Source: Niastella vici (lineage in GTDB: Bacteria > Bacteroidota > Bacteroidia > Chitinophagales > Chitinophagaceae). Taken from it: a stretch of 64,000 nucleotides of DNA. The translations under genes were made by a program, and so were the position numbers. Shown here piece after piece: positions 8,360 through 16,690 of the stretch. The stretch covers positions 1-64,000 of the forward strand of contig NZ_LVYD01000072.1 in NCBI RefSeq assembly GCF_002077945.1, written 5' to 3'. Each line of letters begins with the position of its first letter. The first letter of the stretch is position 1. Under the pieces are notes generated by a model. It did not search any database. It was not told the DNA's origin and was given only the letters and a program-made list of their open reading frames with translations.

Positions 8360-10819
8360 TTAATCTTCGAAATAATGATTTAATTTCCTGAGGCGGGAAA
8401 TGATGGCTCCTTTTGTGCGGCCGAAGTGGGCGGCTATTTTACCGAGGGCCGTTCCATTGTCGTAATGAATTTTTAATTCATCATCCTGTTCATCAGACCA
8501 GGGTTTGTAGGCATCCTTGTTTACTTCCCGTTTATTCCAAACGGTATAGGCCTTTTCTTTGGCGCCGGGGGAAACAGCTCTCTTTTTAGCAGGTGTTTGT
8601 TTGGCAGTTGTTTGTTTGGCAGTTGTTTGTTTGGCAGTTGTTTGTTTGGCAGTTGTTTGTTTGGCAGTTGTTTGTTTGGCAGTTGTTTGTTTGGCAGTTG
8701 TTTGTTTGGCAGTTGTTTGTTTGGCAGTTGTTTGTTTGGCAGTTGTTTGTTTGGCAGTTGTTTGTTTGGCAGTTGTTTGTTTGGCAGTTGTTTGTTTGGC
8801 AGTTGTTTGTTTGGCAGTTGTTTGTTTGGCAGTTGTTTGTTTGGCAGTTGTTTGTTTGGCAGTTGTTTGTTTGGCAGTTGTTTGTTTGGCAGTTGTTTGT
8901 TTGGCAGTTGTTTGTTTGGCAGTTGTTTGTTTGGCAGTTGTTTGTTTGGCAGTTGTTTGTTTGGCAGTTGTTTGTTTGGCAGTTGTTTGTTTGGCAGTTG
9001 TTTGTTTGGCAGTTGTTTGTTTGGCAGTTGTTTGTTTGGCAGTTGTTTGTTTGGCAGTTGTTTGTTTGGCAGTTGTTTGTTTGGCAGTTGTTTGTTTGGC
9101 AGTTGTTTGTTTGGCAGTTGTTTGTTTGGCAGTTGTTTGTTTGGCAGTTGTTTGTTTGGCAGTTGTTTGTTTGGCAGTTGTTTGTTTGGCAGTTGTTTGT
9201 TTGGCAGCAGCTCTTTCAGCCAGATAACTGTTTTGATCTAGGCTGGGTTCCTTCGGTTTTACTTTTACAATGCGTGCAGAAGCCGGAAAATCTTTTGGTA
9301 ATAAGGTTTCCGGAATATGCAAAATATTCTTTGTGCGGGTAATGGCTACGTACAATAAATTGATCTCTTCATTGAGCCGGGCGCTGTCGAATTGGGCGGT
9401 TTTGTCGCTGGCCTGTTTTTCCTTCAGTTCTTTCAGTTTTCCTTCCGACAGAAAATCATTTACCAGGTGCACCACATCATATTCCATTCCTTTGGCGCGG
9501 TGCACGGTTGAAAAGATCATTTCGGCTTTGTTGCGGTCTTCATCACCGGTATGCAGGTCTTTGAGCGATTTGATGATGCCATGCACTTCATTTCCATATT
9601 CACGAACGATCTCGATCATGGTGGCCAGCTGATGGTCTTCGGTTTTCTCAGCATATTCTTCCAGGTCGTCGATATCTTTCATGGAACCAACCACCTGATC
9701 GCGGATGCGATCATGATTGCCATTGTACAAACTCAATACATCATATAATGAGGCGCCATCATCGGCATACATATAGGAGCTGATGTTGCCTTCGAAGTAA
9801 ATATGTTTCACCTTGCTGTTGTCGGTAATAAAATCAATTGCTTTCAACAGCAAGCCCAGGTTGGTGCGGGCAATGGTAGCTTTAACGAGTTCTTTTTTGC
9901 CGGCGCCTTTGCCGGCAATGGCTACGGGTTTGCATTCGAACAAATGATTTTTCCACGAAAGCACTTCGATGGCGAGATTGGCAATTTCCTGCGGAAACCG
10001 GAAACTGGTTGACAGTTGTAAGGTATTGAAATTGGTTCTATCCAGTGAATTCACGGCGTGGCGCCAGCCATAGATCTGTTGGTGGGTGTCGCCAACAATT
10101 ACTTTGGTGGCTTTTTGTTTCGTCACCACATCGAGCATGGCGGCGGATGCATCCTGCGCTTCATCAAACAGGATATAATCATAAGGAAGCACCGGGTTCG
10201 ACAATTGAAATTTCTTCAGATAAAAATCATGGGTGATCTCTATTTCTCCCCTATCCATTTTCGCCAACAGCAAGCGGGTGCCATCTTCAATGAATTTATA
10301 AAAAGTGTGCGCGAATGATCTGGCATTGGTGTCAACGAGGGTATCGAGATAATTCAGCTCCTGCACTTTTGCTTTATCGCTGTTACAGAAGTACGCCGCG
10401 AATTTGCTGATGTGATTGGCAATTACAAATTCGGCATGCTTTTCCCCATTACCCCTGATATCGAGCAGCTGGCAGATCTCACTGTTCTTATACCCCTGCG
10501 CTTTTACTTTATAATTATGTTTGAATACGATATGTTTGTAAGCCAGCGAGTGAGCGGTTTCTACCTTTACATTTGCAAGACCATAGTCGGCAAACTTGCG
10601 CACAGCTTCCAGCTTCACCGATTTATTGAACGCGAGGTACAGGATGCGCGCATTACCAGGGCGGGAAGCCGCATATTCAATGATGGTGGTAGTTTTGCCG
10701 GAACCGGCTACCGCGTTGATGCGGAGATCACTGCCAGCGTTAATGATAGCAGTTTGTTGTTTTGTCAACGTTTTTTTATTGAACACTTCTCCTGAATTTT
10801 TACCTGCAGCAGTAGACAT
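8360..10819 (-). CDS. UvrD/Rep-type superfamily 1 helicase with a (TTAKQ)n linker and a Myb/SANT-like C-terminus
   Basis: 819 residues in three parts. Residues 1-530 form an SF1A helicase: AVAGSGKTTT (Walker A), ILFDEAQD (Walker B), VGDTHQQIYGWR, FSTVHRAKGMEYD and LLYVAITRTK are all present, so it should be an ATP-driven 3'-5' DNA translocase of the UvrD/FBH1 kind. Residues about 537-741 are 41 tandem TAKQT pentapeptides. Residues 755-818 form a small helix-turn-helix-like domain (WSDEQDDELKIHYDNGTALGKIAAHFGRTKGAIISRLRKL) resembling Myb/SANT or GcrA-type DNA-binding modules. The linker is lysine-rich, hydrophilic and probably disordered. Length without the repeat, about 615, is normal for the helicase. 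Role is presumably DNA repair. Confidence 0.9.
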   Translation of the reverse strand: MSTAAGKNSGEVFNKKTLTKQQTAIINAGSDLRINAVAGSGKTTTIIEYAASRPGNARILYLAFNKSVKLEAVRKFADYGLANVKVETAHSLAYKHIVFKHNYKVKAQGYKNSEICQLLDIRGNGEKHAEFVIANHISKFAAYFCNSDKAKVQELNYLDTLVDTNARSFAHTFYKFIEDGTRLLLAKMDRGEIEITHDFYLKKFQLSNPVLPYDYILFDEAQDASAAMLDVVTKQKATKVIVGDTHQQIYGWRHAVNSLDRTNFNTLQLSTSFRFPQEIANLAIEVLSWKNHLFECKPVAIAGKGAGKKELVKATIARTNLGLLLKAIDFITDNSKVKHIYFEGNISSYMYADDGASLYDVLSLYNGNHDRIRDQVVGSMKDIDDLEEYAEKTEDHQLATMIEIVREYGNEVHGIIKSLKDLHTGDEDRNKAEMIFSTVHRAKGMEYDVVHLVNDFLSEGKLKELKEKQASDKTAQFDSARLNEEINLLYVAITRTKNILHIPETLLPKDFPASARIVKVKPKEPSLDQNSYLAERAAAKQTTAKQTTAKQTTAKQTTAKQTTAKQTTAKQTTAKQTTAKQTTAKQTTAKQTTAKQTTAKQTTAKQTTAKQTTAKQTTAKQTTAKQTTAKQTTAKQTTAKQTTAKQTTAKQTTAKQTTAKQTTAKQTTAKQTTAKQTTAKQTTAKQTTAKQTTAKQTTAKQTTAKQTTAKQTTAKQTTAKQTTAKQTTAKQTTAKQTTAKQTPAKKRAVSPGAKEKAYTVWNKREVNKDAYKPWSDEQDDELKIHYDNGTALGKIAAHFGRTKGAIISRLRKLNHYFED
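8596..9210. repeat. Minisatellite: about 41 tandem copies of a 15-bp unit inside the helicase gene
   Basis: The plus-strand unit TTTGTTTGGCAGTTG repeats with period 15 across 615 bases; all but the terminal copies appear identical. It reads TAKQT on the minus strand. Because the period is a multiple of three, copy number can change without breaking the frame. The unit has no stop codon in any plus-strand frame, which explains long spurious antisense frames here. Confidence 0.97.
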
Positions 10820-10936: not shown

Positions 10937-12154
10937 TTATCGCATTTCAATGATACCCCATTTACCGTTGAATTTAACCCAGGCGCGCTTTTTGTAGAAT
11001 GGACCGGCCTTTTCGAAAACAATTTCTGACAAAGGTTTCCCCTGTTCATTCAGATAACCGTATTTACCATTAGACCTGGCGATCAACAGGCCATTGCCGG
11101 CACTTTGTAGATCCTCATATTCAAGGGGTATGGAAATCGCCTTTTTTGTGAGATCAAACACCCCATATTTTAAGTAGGTATTCTCGTACGCCCACAATTT
11201 GGCAAGATCGTCGTATTGCGTTTTGAAAAAGAACTTCGAAACGATCAATTTATCAATTGTATATTCATTGAATTCGTTGAACTCAAAGGGGATTATGACT
11301 TTACCGGTGCTATCAATGGCGCCATAATCGCCTTCCTTAGACACAACGTATAACCCGTTGTGTCTTTGTCTGTAGGCGCTGAATTGCGGCTCTACCACTA
11401 TTTTAAAATTCCGGTCAATGAAGGCAAAGCCTTTTGCATCTTTAATATTAATTAACGCAAGGGGGCCGTCGAAAGAATTTACACTGGTCCAGTTATCGGG
11501 ACAGGCAAAAACAGTATTCCCCTTTTTATCAATAATGCTCCATTTGTAGTTGTCTGGATTCATAACTCCAGCGATACCACCACTAAAGGGCGTATTATAC
11601 ATGTATTTAAAATCTGTAAGAGAATTACCAGTTGGGTCAATATATCCGCCCGCCGTTTTTTCATTGGGCAGATACACTTCTACAGGCAATGCATTTTCTT
11701 TGAAAGCATCACCTTTGATACTTCTAATAGGGAACGCTGTTTTAAGCCTGGAGCCATCGCCCCTGAACAGGAGAATTTCGCCGCTTACAGACAGCGCATA
11801 AAAATCAGGCTTGATGAAAGAGAAAGAATAAGCTTTGCAGGGGTATACTGTATCACCTTTGAGATTGATAAGACCAATATTGCTACCTTGTTTCACAGGG
11901 ATCAGTCCTTTTTTGTAAAGCGGCTCAGCGCTGATGGTGTCGACCTCCAGGTGCCCTTCAAAATCTATGAGCCCGTATTTGTGGTTATTGACAATATAGG
12001 AATATCCTTCATCCATAACAGGACCAATAAAACCATTTTCCAGTTCGAGAAAAGGTTCCTTATACCATTTAAAATTTTTACCAGGGATATTTTGGGCAGA
12101 CAGATCAGAACAAAGGAAAAAGGAAAATAGAACCCATAAAAATTTGTGGACCAT
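10937..12154 (-). CDS. Secreted WG-repeat protein
   Basis: 405 residues with an N-terminal signal (KFLWVLFSFFLCSDLSAQ) and about eight WG (KWG) repeats, seen as units such as YGLIDFEGHLEV, IGLINLKGDTVYP, WSIIDKKGNTVFA, FAFIDRNFKIVVEPQF, YGAIDSTGKVIIPFEF and WGIIEMR at the end. WG-repeat proteins are predicted beta-propeller-like envelope proteins; no enzymatic role is known to me. It has its own terminator. A helicase gene follows on the same strand but is probably separately transcribed. Confidence 0.85.
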   Translation of the reverse strand: MVHKFLWVLFSFFLCSDLSAQNIPGKNFKWYKEPFLELENGFIGPVMDEGYSYIVNNHKYGLIDFEGHLEVDTISAEPLYKKGLIPVKQGSNIGLINLKGDTVYPCKAYSFSFIKPDFYALSVSGEILLFRGDGSRLKTAFPIRSIKGDAFKENALPVEVYLPNEKTAGGYIDPTGNSLTDFKYMYNTPFSGGIAGVMNPDNYKWSIIDKKGNTVFACPDNWTSVNSFDGPLALINIKDAKGFAFIDRNFKIVVEPQFSAYRQRHNGLYVVSKEGDYGAIDSTGKVIIPFEFNEFNEYTIDKLIVSKFFFKTQYDDLAKLWAYENTYLKYGVFDLTKKAISIPLEYEDLQSAGNGLLIARSNGKYGYLNEQGKPLSEIVFEKAGPFYKKRAWVKFNGKWGIIEMR

Positions 12155-12315: not shown

Positions 12316-12447
12316 AAATCCAAAGCCTGGTATGAGTGAGGCAGGAATTAGGTGCAGCTAAGATCCGAGGGATGGTGAATATTGGTCATTTCAAGGATTG
12401 GATGACTCTGTTCTAAATTGTTCCCATTTAGAGAATACTTTCAGGAA

Positions 12448-12488
12448 AGCTACGGTCAAGCTTCGGTCAAGCTTCGGTCACGCTTCGA
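12448..12488. repeat. Tandem 11-bp repeat, about four copies
   Basis: Successive units AGCTACGGTCA, AGCTTCGGTCA, AGCTTCGGTCA and CGCTTCGAT lie end to end. No coding frame is associated. Confidence 0.75.
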
Positions 12489-12920: not shown

Positions 12921-12994
12921 GGCGGGATAGCTCAGGTGGTTAGAGCGTTGGATTCATAACCCAAAGGTCTCGGGTTCAACTCCCGATCCCGCTA
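12921..12994 (+). tRNA. tRNA with CAU anticodon (tRNA-Met, possibly Ile2)
   Basis: 74 nucleotides fold as a standard cloverleaf: acceptor GGCGGGA/TCCCGCT, D-stem GCTC/GAGC, anticodon loop TTCATAA, T-arm TCGGG-TTCAACT-CCCGA, discriminator A. The first acceptor pair is G:U and CCA is not encoded. The CAU anticodon fits elongator Met; a lysidine-modified Ile2 tRNA cannot be excluded by reading alone. A terminator follows at 13002-13027. Confidence 0.95.
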
Positions 12995-13001
12995 CAGAGG
13001 A

Positions 13002-13291: not shown

Positions 13292-13330
13292 TCAAAAAAT
13301 GCATCCGGCTTTTGGCAGGATGCATTTCCT
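13292..13330 (-). terminator. Terminator of the SusC/SusD/fasciclin operon
   Basis: AAATGCATCC (13297-13306) pairs with GGATGCATTT (13318-13327); on the minus strand a T run follows. It lies 40 bases after the last gene of the operon. Confidence 0.8.
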
Positions 13331-13366
13331 AAAGATAGCAAAGCGTTGAGATGGCTAAGTCTATGC

Positions 13367-14347
13367 TCAGTTTGTCCGGGTGACATCTGTCAGCCTTAGC
13401 TCGATGATATACGTGCCTTCCATTTTCAGGGTAAAGGCAAAGCGGGGATTAACCGAATACAAGCCGGGTGTAAAACCATCTATGGTTGCAAACTTGCTGG
13501 GTATGCGGTAATAGATCAGGTGCCCCCAATCGGTGGTAGGGGTTATATATTTTGCCAATGGGAAAGGCGCTACTTCAAAGTCGCAGATCATAGCCGTATC
13601 GGTGAATTGTACCGGGGTGAATCGGGCATAGTTTTCAAAGGTTGGGCGGTCGCCACGCCGGATGATCTCGCCGGCTTTGGGATTGAAGGGTTTGCCGTTC
13701 TTGTCAGAGATCTTCAGGATGATCCGGGCGCCATCGTTAGATACTTTGGTAAAGGTGAGCTTTGGATTTTTGTGTGCTGTTGCAACGCCGGTTACATCGT
13801 GAAAGGCGTTGGAAACATTGTCTTCCTGCAGGAAGATATCTTCGGGAAGCGGGTCCACAATATTGATAGTGCCGAATGAAGGAAACAGTTTGGTGCCATT
13901 TACATTGGTCGCCTGCAGGTCGAAGATATATTTGCCCAGGGGAATGTTTACGGAACCACGGTTGAAGCTGATCTGTCCGCTCACGGGATTGAACTCCATA
14001 GGCGTCACAATTCTCTTTTCCCTTTTCTTATTCAGTTCGGCTACGGTGGTATCGGTTTTAATATCGAAAGTCATTCCGGGTTTGAACATGAGCACTTCAT
14101 ATTCCCTGAAAAACTCTTTCGGCGCAGGATCTCCGTTTTCATAGCGCAGGTTCTGCATGTCAAAGTTAATGGGCGGGGTAGAGCCATCGATATCTATTCG
14201 TTGCGATTGCACCAGTGGCAGACCGCGCAGGCAATAGATATTCTTATCGATATAGCGCATGGTATCGCTCAAAAAACCTTCCTGTATTTTTTTACAGGCC
14301 ATACCGGTTATTATAAGGACCAGCAGCAAGTAGATTATTTTTCTCAT
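13367..14347 (-). CDS. DUF5007-like lipoprotein, last gene of a SusC/D operon
   Basis: 326 residues. The signal peptide ends in IITGMACKK, giving a lipid-attachment cysteine at residue 18. The rest looks all-beta, with segments such as FDIKTDTTVAELNKKREKRIVTP and IPLGKYIFDLQATNVNGTKLF that recall bacterial Ig-like or carbohydrate-binding modules. I place it in the DUF5007 group from its look and its company: such proteins sit beside fasciclin-domain lipoproteins in SusC/D operons. It is 47 bases downstream of the fasciclin gene. A role as a surface glycan-binding accessory protein is inferred, not shown. Confidence 0.7.
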   Translation of the reverse strand: MRKIIYLLLVLIITGMACKKIQEGFLSDTMRYIDKNIYCLRGLPLVQSQRIDIDGSTPPINFDMQNLRYENGDPAPKEFFREYEVLMFKPGMTFDIKTDTTVAELNKKREKRIVTPMEFNPVSGQISFNRGSVNIPLGKYIFDLQATNVNGTKLFPSFGTINIVDPLPEDIFLQEDNVSNAFHDVTGVATAHKNPKLTFTKVSNDGARIILKISDKNGKPFNPKAGEIIRRGDRPTFENYARFTPVQFTDTAMICDFEVAPFPLAKYITPTTDWGHLIYYRIPSKFATIDGFTPGLYSVNPRFAFTLKMEGTYIIELRLTDVTRTN

Positions 14348-14394
14348 GGTGTAATATCTTGTTTGTAAGAGAATAGTGATAATGTATGTTCACA

Positions 14395-15081
14395 TTAAGG
14401 CAGCGGTTCGGTATTGAAGAATAACCGGTGAAAGTTGCTCAACACATGGATGGTGCCGGTGTTGGTAATAATACCAGTGGTTTGGCAATCATATCCCATG
14501 TCCTTATCTTTTGCCGGGATGGTGGTTTGATCGGGCTCTGTTTCGTCGCGTGTGCCGATCACTTTGGTAAAACGGATGTAATCCACATGATCGATGTAAC
14601 TGCCGTAATCCTGTGTTCGCCTGAGGTTGATGTAAAACGATGCATTGGGAATGGGACCCAGCAGGTTTTGATAGTACTTCCCTTCCACTGTTAGCTTATC
14701 GCGGCCCAGGTCGCCATAGAACATATACATCTTCAGCGAGTCCTTCACTTCCTGCAATGGAAGACTGTCGAGCGTATAAATAATATTTTCATCATGCAGC
14801 TCAATGGCCCTTCTGTAGTAGCGTGCTCTTACAAACTCATCCACACTGTAGTTGGTGCAGGCAAAGAATGTAATGTCGCCATTGACCGTCTCTTTTAGTC
14901 CGGCCCTGTCTATTAAATGCACCAGGGAAGAGAATTGGGGTTTTGACTTCAGGTAATCGTATGTGGTCATATCGACCTTTGGGTTGTGCGTGCCGCCATC
15001 TGCTTTATAGCTGTTTTTGTTGCAGGATACAATACTGCCGGCCATAACAAGTATAAGTAGTGATACTATAATATTTTTCAT
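14395..15081 (-). CDS. Fasciclin (FAS1) domain lipoprotein
   Basis: 228 residues with a lipoprotein signal (LVMAGSIVSCNK, cysteine at about residue 20). A single FAS1 domain is recognised from TTYDYLKSKPQFSSLVHLIDRAGLKETVNGDITFFACTN near the start and GIITNTGTIHVLSNFHRLFF at the end, the hallmark closing strand. FAS1 domains mediate adhesion or ligand contact. It is the third gene of the SusC-SusD operon, 31 bases after the SusD stop, so it is likely a surface-exposed accessory of the same importer. Confidence 0.85.
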   Translation of the reverse strand: MKNIIVSLLILVMAGSIVSCNKNSYKADGGTHNPKVDMTTYDYLKSKPQFSSLVHLIDRAGLKETVNGDITFFACTNYSVDEFVRARYYRRAIELHDENIIYTLDSLPLQEVKDSLKMYMFYGDLGRDKLTVEGKYYQNLLGPIPNASFYINLRRTQDYGSYIDHVDYIRFTKVIGTRDETEPDQTTIPAKDKDMGYDCQTTGIITNTGTIHVLSNFHRLFFNTEPLP

Positions 15082-15112
15082 AATAAAAAGATAATTGAGT
15101 TAAACACAATGA

Positions 15113-16690
15113 TCAAATCTTGCCCAGCCAGTAAGAAGTTTGTACCAGGAACCTGTTTTCCTTGAACAGGGAAGGGCTTACCGGCCAATAAAAACCACCC
15201 CTTGCAAAACGGCCTTCAGAAAGCCAGTCAACAAAGTTGGGATACATCCTTGTTCTGAGCAGGTCGAAAAAGATATGACCTTCCAGGTACATCTCCTTTC
15301 CACGCTCCACAATGTATTCATTCATCAGGTCGTCGCGGGTATATGTATCATCAACCCGGTTAGCAGGATTGGAGCCATTGCGCTGCCGCGATTCATTGAT
15401 CACCTGTATCGCCGTATTGAGGTCATTTTTATAAAGCGCTATCTCTGCCTGCAGCAATTTCATATCGGAGTAGCGAAAGATGACCATATCATTACTTAGA
15501 TAGGCGTCGAGGTTTTGTCCGGGATTCCGGTATACTACATTACTGTATTTACGGCACATGGGTTTAGCACTATTCACATAATCGAAGTTCTTGCGGTAAC
15601 GAACATCGAGCGTATCAAGAGGGCGTGTCCACTGGCTGCCATCCCAGTACCAGAACTGGTAATTGTTGTTGAAGTAAGAATTGGGCACCCAAAAGCGTGC
15701 GTTGTTGCCGAAGTAAGATACATATTCGGCACCGCGAAGGAATTCCAGGCCGATGTGCGCACTGGAACCTTCCTGTGTTCTATCGTCCATGTATAGTTGG
15801 AAAATGCCTTCCGGTGAAGTGGCGGTGTTGCTGCGGCCGACAAAGGTCATGTAATAATTGGACGTATCGGTATAGGAATAACCGCCCTCGGCCAGTAGTC
15901 TGGTAAGGGTCGTATCGGCATTTTGCACATCCGCCGGGTTCGGCACTTTCGAGTTGAGATCGGCCATGGTGGCGCGCCACAGATACAGGTGCGTCAGCAG
16001 TGCATATACAGAACCTTTATTAGCCGTGACTGCTCTTTCCGATTTTACGGTATAACCCCAATTCAGCAGGGCTGCGGCTTCTTTACAATCCTTTTCGATC
16101 TGCTTTTGTACGTCGGTGGCTGAAGTACGCGGTAACTGGGGCGCAGTGATCGGATCTTCGTATGCTTCGATAACGAGCGGTACATCGCCCCAAACGCGCG
16201 TCATTTCAAAATAAGTGAAAGCCCGGATAAACAGTGCCTGTCCCTTTATTTTCTTCCTGAATTCTGTGATATTGTCTATATCGGAAAGATCTTTGTCGGT
16301 TGCCTTATCAATCTTGCTGATGATGAGGTTGCTCATGGTAATGGTCTTAAAAAACAGCGTCCAGTCGCCCAGGCTTTGCACATTGTACTTGAATGTAAAA
16401 TCGCCATTTTGAATACCTTCCAGCCCATCGCCATTATAATCGATGGTGAAATAATTCTTGGCAACCGCATCGCCATACAAGTAATAGCGGTTGTTTTTAT
16501 TGGTTAGTGTATTTCGCAGTAAGGCATAATTGCCGGCCAGGGCCGATTGATAATCGCGGCCCGACTTCCAGAACACCTCATCGTAGGTCGAGTTCTTCGG
16601 TGTTTGTTCCAGGATCTTTTTGCACGCACTGCCTGTGACAATGCATACTAATAGTAGTAGAATGGTATATATTGATAATTTGCGTTCCAT
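15113..16690 (-). CDS. RagB/SusD family nutrient-binding lipoprotein
   Basis: 525 residues, typical SusD length. Lipoprotein signal ending in IVTGSACKK, then TPKNSTYDEVFWKSGRDYQSALAGNYALLR, the TPR-like helix with FIRAFTYFEMTRVWGDVPLV, and the C-terminal IVERGKEMYLEGHIFFDLLRT block that is diagnostic of SusD. It binds the substrate over the pore of the partner SusC. It follows the SusC gene by 24 bases. The substrate is unknown because no hydrolase is linked. Confidence 0.95.
   Translation of the reverse strand: MERKLSIYTILLLLVCIVTGSACKKILEQTPKNSTYDEVFWKSGRDYQSALAGNYALLRNTLTNKNNRYYLYGDAVAKNYFTIDYNGDGLEGIQNGDFTFKYNVQSLGDWTLFFKTITMSNLIISKIDKATDKDLSDIDNITEFRKKIKGQALFIRAFTYFEMTRVWGDVPLVIEAYEDPITAPQLPRTSATDVQKQIEKDCKEAAALLNWGYTVKSERAVTANKGSVYALLTHLYLWRATMADLNSKVPNPADVQNADTTLTRLLAEGGYSYTDTSNYYMTFVGRSNTATSPEGIFQLYMDDRTQEGSSAHIGLEFLRGAEYVSYFGNNARFWVPNSYFNNNYQFWYWDGSQWTRPLDTLDVRYRKNFDYVNSAKPMCRKYSNVVYRNPGQNLDAYLSNDMVIFRYSDMKLLQAEIALYKNDLNTAIQVINESRQRNGSNPANRVDDTYTRDDLMNEYIVERGKEMYLEGHIFFDLLRTRMYPNFVDWLSEGRFARGGFYWPVSPSLFKENRFLVQTSYWLGKI

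Follow-up and report, generated by a model that had tools for sequence, protein, structure and literature searches.

A 15-bp in-frame tandem repeat in the linker of an FBH1-like helicase gene of Niastella vici

The helicase gene and its surroundings

The window, which is the whole stretch of 64,000 nucleotides of Niastella vici DNA that was analysed, encodes on its minus strand a helicase in which a tandem array separates the enzyme core from a small C-terminal domain. The following features could be distinguished:

8360-10819, minus strand: whole open reading frame (819 aa, ATG start, stop included), an FBH1-like SF1 helicase with an expanded linker and an HTH-like tail (ORF list, Pfam and FBH1 match)
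9260-10819, minus strand: helicase core, approximately residues 1-520 (Pfam matches at residues 20-257 and 364-502, invariant residues in 52 sequences; boundary set by the analysts)
8594-9208, minus strand: tandem array of 41 units of 15 bp, residues 538-742 (TRF and unit-by-unit reading; exact period-15 run at 8594-9207, 614 bp)
8579-8593, minus strand: 15 PAKKR-coding bases following the array, 10 of which agree with its first unit and which may be left over from a seed near-repeat
8522-8593, minus strand: remaining linker from the array to the HTH-like domain, alignable with that of congeners (alignment)
8363-8521, minus strand: small C-terminal HTH-like (GcrA/Myb/D5-like) domain (profile, sub-cutoff Pfam and a match of an ortholog to phrog_323)

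The core belongs to the UvrD-type SF1 helicases, with Pfam matches to UvrD-helicase (52.2 bits; cutoff 23) and UvrD_C (47.9 bits; cutoff 25.6). Residues G39, G41, K42 and T43, D219, E220 and Q222, and R495 are invariant across 52 aligned sequences and correspond to Walker A, DExx and late motifs, respectively. Comparison of the window core alone against solved structures gave FBH1 (PDB 9xzj chain F; E 1.9e-44 over residues 18-503) followed by Rep (8.9e-5), while the core profile matched FBH1 at 3.6e-72, GajB at 1.3e-11 and PcrA at 9.5e-10, so that the core is more similar to FBH1 than to the other SF1 helicases of known structure. No F-box family occurs among the Pfam matches to the window protein at E-values up to 1, and the protein is therefore classed as FBH1-like and not as FBH1. 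The Gabija protein GajB, with a best PADLOC match at 5.6e-15, was rejected as an identity since FBH1 is far closer by profile. The nearest genes, as read by eye from the ORF list, encode TetR-, SDR- and AraC-like proteins; these neighbours are conserved and do not include a gajA partner. Translocation in the 3'-5' direction and removal of recombinase filaments are described for Fbh1 and UvrD (PMC4999840, PMC4148199), and both the direction and the role would be expected of the window protein by analogy.

The helicase family is represented mostly by Bacteroidota records and has phage relatives (285 of 50,697 records, each with <60% identity), and one ortholog matches phrog_1967 (DNA helicase) at 1.1e-85. 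The result points to a bacterial helicase family with a core that is nearest, among solved structures, to that of eukaryotic FBH1.

The tail is conserved, with 69-83% identity in the five congeners compared. Its profile matches 2lvs with a whole-sequence E-value of 5.1e-7 (0.014 for the best single stretch) and the GcrA DNA-binding domain at 0.0022, and the tail of an ortholog matches phrog_323, a family of D5-like phage regulators, at 2.5e-10. The window tail scores under the Pfam cutoffs for both GcrA (21.7 of 26.9 bits) and Myb (16.6 of 24.4 bits). The profile matches thus support an HTH-like domain, which by the curated models would be no closer to GcrA and Myb than a resemblance. The layout proposed in an earlier sequence-only reading, namely an SF1 core, the repeat tract and then a Myb/GcrA-like HTH, agrees with these assignments; the resemblance of the core to FBH1 was not part of that reading.

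A WG-type repeat gene (named by eye; 10937-12154) lies between the helicase and a tRNA-Met gene (12921-12995), and gave no tblastn match at an E-value of 1e-5 in eleven relative loci with short flanks. The segment at 13294-15680, near the tRNA-Met gene, shares 97.1% DNA identity over 2387 bp with Niastella caeni. Since the nearby helicase shares approximately 80% identity and the tRNA-Met gene is close by, this gene cluster may have undergone recent transfer or conversion. The only other TRF entry in the window is an 11-bp tandem repeat, AAGCTTCGGTC, with 3.7 copies at 12447-12487.

The tandem array

TRF reports a period of 15 bp with 41.5 copies and 99% matches at 8585-9207 (score 1232). Read unit by unit on the minus strand, the array consists of one GCTGCCAAACAAACA followed by 40 consecutive ACTGCCAAACAAACA, giving 41 units of 15 bp over 8594-9208, of which 40 are identical and the first differs by one base. 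About 41 near-identical units had been recognised in the sequence-only reading, with coordinates (8596-9210) that were two bases off, and the approximately 205 TAKQT residues described there correspond to residues 538-742 of 819, comprising one AAKQT and 40 TAKQT. This 205-residue tract is composed of 81 threonines, 42 alanines, 41 lysines and 41 glutamines, with no acidic residues. The reading frame continues through the array and remains open into the conserved C-terminal domain. The array is thus an in-frame coding minisatellite, since its unit length is divisible by three and it lies inside a coding frame, and changes in unit number are frame-neutral, as had been pointed out from the letters. 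The plus-strand ORFs across the array were dismissed as by-products of a stop-free repeat.

A search of the 10-Mb window genome with a 27-base array pattern, allowing up to three mismatches, gave 40 matches, every one of them inside the array, while the reversed control gave none. Chance origin of the pattern is therefore excluded. When the array was sought in the window genome, ten genus genomes and 395 phylum-sample genomes (with its own genome in each set), only the window array was found; the pattern thus occurs in one of the ten genus genomes, that of the window itself, and the sole further match in these searches was a single two-mismatch match in one genome (G518). A protein search with the repeat plus tail gave matches in 50 of 294 family genomes, the own genome included, and among the 55 places listed, for some of which the sequences were read, multiple matches occur in the own genome only. 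Elsewhere in the own genome (L213, 7021-7119), an imperfect repeat encodes a lysine/alanine-rich AKKAAKK-type stretch that is H1-like in composition.

The linker in related helicases

The core search gave a match in 18 of 59 genomes, the own genome included. Of 275 relatives found in named genomes, 80 were taken; the genus sample includes Niastella and Longitalea. Linker length was taken as the distance between a YVAxTRT-type motif and the tryptophan of the HTH. It was measured in 83 distinct tails of orthologs, which were retained after duplicates and several loci had been dropped. The latter include loci of the own genome (L001-L004, L104-L112), loci that were cut off or fragmentary (L012, L029, L019, L022), two in which frame extension stopped at once (L037, L094) and two that lack the measuring motif (L039, L042), the ends of which still show an HTH-like tail. 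At L029 (607-1890; Longitalea luteola) the helicase ends after approximately residue 442, with linker and tail missing, and a TetR gene match starts 73 bp later.

The linker spans 55-96 residues (median 77) in the 83 tails and 284 residues in the window protein, and its net charge, which ranges from 0 to 14 (median 4) among these tails, is +48 in the latter. No exact tandem longer than six residues was found in the 83 distinct tails. An alignment with orthologs had been proposed in the sequence-only reading as a check on whether the tract and the C-terminal domain are always present. The two fared differently: the tract is carried by none of the 83 tails, and is therefore no conserved feature of the helicase, while the loose motif by which the HTH was placed (tryptophan, then D or E within 4-6 residues) occurs in all of them. 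Congeners contain one pentad-like stretch at the array site, for example AKTKTTPAKKK. Because the 83 tails have short linkers without a long tandem, the tract is, as far as can be judged from these sequences, a private expansion of a linker kept short in relatives. Against seven congener loci, the core has a dN of 0.07-0.10 and a dS of 1.2-1.9 (dN/dS well below 1), while the dN of the tail against congeners is 0.10-0.21.

Length of the array in the assembly

The window assembly comprises 134 contigs, and 17 of the first 20 are only 491-1220 bp in length, which suggests that short reads were used. A scan of the window genome for exact periods of 2-59, which covered 96 stretches totalling 1.54 Mb, revealed one long run, a heptamer array of 637 bp, and three others of 55-62 bp, with no exact runs between 62 and 637 bp in this sample. 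Two more heptamer patterns were searched afterwards and gave one long array each, so that three long exact arrays are known in the own genome besides that of the helicase gene:

L216, 5455-6091, contig C13: exact heptamer array, 637 bp
L243, 512-1133, contig C48: exact heptamer array, 622 bp
L247, 248-744, contig C24: exact heptamer array, 497 bp

Four exact arrays with unrelated units in one assembly, of 497, 614, 622 and 637 bp, thus lie within a factor of 1.28 of each other. Such tight lengths have a probability of 0.002-0.008 under three log-uniform nulls, for four arrays and with ranges chosen by the analysts. In congeners the same heptamers occur in short arrays, many with variant units, and no exact run of at least 50 bp was found in 400 kb of a single-contig congener, a sample one quarter the size of that taken from the own genome. 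The assembly or the library therefore probably shaped the lengths of the four arrays.

It is accordingly possible, although we consider it distinctly less likely than a real expansion, that assembly produced most of the long array, with an assembler or gap closer extending a shorter real repeat to approximately 500-640 bp and erasing its variants. The four arrays thereby raise the possibility of an assembly artefact, which had been named in the sequence-only reading. The clustered lengths of the four unrelated arrays, the absence of exact runs between 62 and 637 bp in the 1.54 Mb scanned, the small size of most of the first contigs and the short, often impure heptamer arrays of congeners all speak for this explanation, as does a review which describes that repeats exceeding the read length can be massively misjudged (PMC6868369). 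However, the known arrays number only four, of which two came from a targeted search, real arrays of this size could just as well have been selected by a limit on library insert size, and any tandem path through an assembly needs some repeat beyond a single copy. Exact runs of 50-62 bp occur elsewhere in the assembly, and the real array is therefore likely to be longer than these. The true unit number is probably more than a handful, with 41 being the figure of the assembly. If the length is real, the window protein provides a clear natural case of a helicase in which the link between the motor and the DNA-binding tail is stretched several-fold. If the length is not real, the arrays serve as a warning that exact arrays of approximately 500-640 bp in draft assemblies can be shaped by the method.

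Origin and possible effect of the expansion

The explanation we favour, with some reserve, is that the array is an in-frame coding minisatellite that expanded within a tolerant, fast-evolving basic linker, and that the change was near-neutral in a protein which is still a working helicase. The starting point would have been a pre-existing lysine-containing pentad in the linker between the FBH1-like core and the HTH-like tail, from which the minisatellite may have grown by slippage or unequal recombination. Growth in this lineage from a near-repeat is the most likely course given the single pentad-like stretch of congeners and the 10/15 match that follows the array. Gain or loss would be restricted to whole codons, because the conserved downstream tail must remain in frame. 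The product would probably be a working helicase with a longer, presumably flexible and strongly basic tether, and the effect would most likely be close to neutral. The conservation of the tail in congeners and the core dN/dS well below 1 count in favour of such minisatellite growth, although the low ratio reflects the long past and not the time since the expansion, and 41 added positive charges may not be neutral. DNA hairpins as the driver of slippage were considered and rejected, as eight units gave a weak fold on the plus strand (z -1.32) and none on the minus strand.

If the purity of the array is real, the absence of differences across 600 bp of units sets a divergence bound of approximately 0.005 per site, which, against a core dS of 1.2-1.9, indicates that the array is very recent or has been homogenised. 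If the purity is an effect of assembly, the bound is meaningless. The recent expansion that had been proposed from the sequence therefore fits the letters, with 40 units that do not differ and a pattern absent from the other nine genus genomes, but assembly could also have erased the divergence.

Other explanations give the tract a function or deny one to the gene. The tract may form a basic, histone-H1-like DNA-binding arm that raises the affinity or processivity of the helicase, in line with its 41 lysines and lack of acidic residues in 205, with the Pfam HC2 match of 81.3 bits (cutoff 40) and with the DNA binding described for peptides of the KPAA-repeat tail of AlgP (PMC9239181). The charge of the linker makes such binding plausible. 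However, the HC2 match probably reflects composition, the NCBIfam Hc2-type models remain under their cutoffs (46.6 bits against 80 and 45.1 bits against 135), each pentad has a single lysine and no such arm occurs among the 83 orthologous tails, and we regard this explanation as unlikely. Decay of the gene, with the array growing under relaxed selection, is if anything less likely still: one congener genome (L012/L029) has a copy cut off after approximately residue 442 and the core is matched in just 18 of the 59 genomes, but the window gene has an intact frame and retains the SF1 residues shared by all 52 aligned sequences. Instability is expected of pure 15-bp units, and every unit change keeps the frame, so that the copy number could act as an adjustable tether, differing from cell to cell and adjusting the reach from motor to HTH. 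This was considered very improbable, as the array is known from one genome and the linker length of orthologs is confined to 55-96 residues.

The most far-reaching possibility, for which we hold out hardly any expectation, is that the tract is real and long and that an FBH1-like, possibly anti-recombinogenic helicase has an H1-like arm that grows and shrinks by pentads, with a link to wider repeat growth. When four repeat units were tested in ten genus genomes, long pure arrays were found only in the window genome, and an altered helicase and wider repeat growth may thus be linked. In that case, a protein which limits repeat recombination would carry an expanding repeat of its own.

Comparison with known systems

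A title-level search, mainly outside subscription journals, returned no recognised account of this helicase repeat. The window protein shares the helicase core with FBH1 over residues 18-503, but has no F-box match, starts near the core and ends in an HTH-like tail preceded by a repeat linker. PcrA/UvrD helicases with a C-terminal Tudor domain similarly combine an SF1 core, a region deleted from or disordered in earlier crystal structures and a small domain, as described in PMC5397179, whereas the small domain of the window protein is HTH-like and not Tudor-like, and its linker is repetitive. Lysine-rich pentamers, like those of the window tract, and in-frame size differences are described for Hc2, its Burkholderia relatives and BpH1, and the Hc2 of Chlamydia varies in size by 36-residue elements (PMC2848022). 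These, however, are small proteins that bind DNA and lack an enzyme core, while the window protein is an 819-aa helicase and not a stand-alone small basic protein of the Hc2/H1-like kind. AlgP of Pseudomonas aeruginosa is a DNA-associated protein with a basic tandem-repeat segment that is predicted to be disordered (PMC9239181), but this segment is a C-terminal tail in which four-residue units occur with variants, and no helicase is attached to it. The window tract thus belongs with the in-frame coding minisatellites, its length being uncertain, and here the repeat forms an internal linker of an enzyme.
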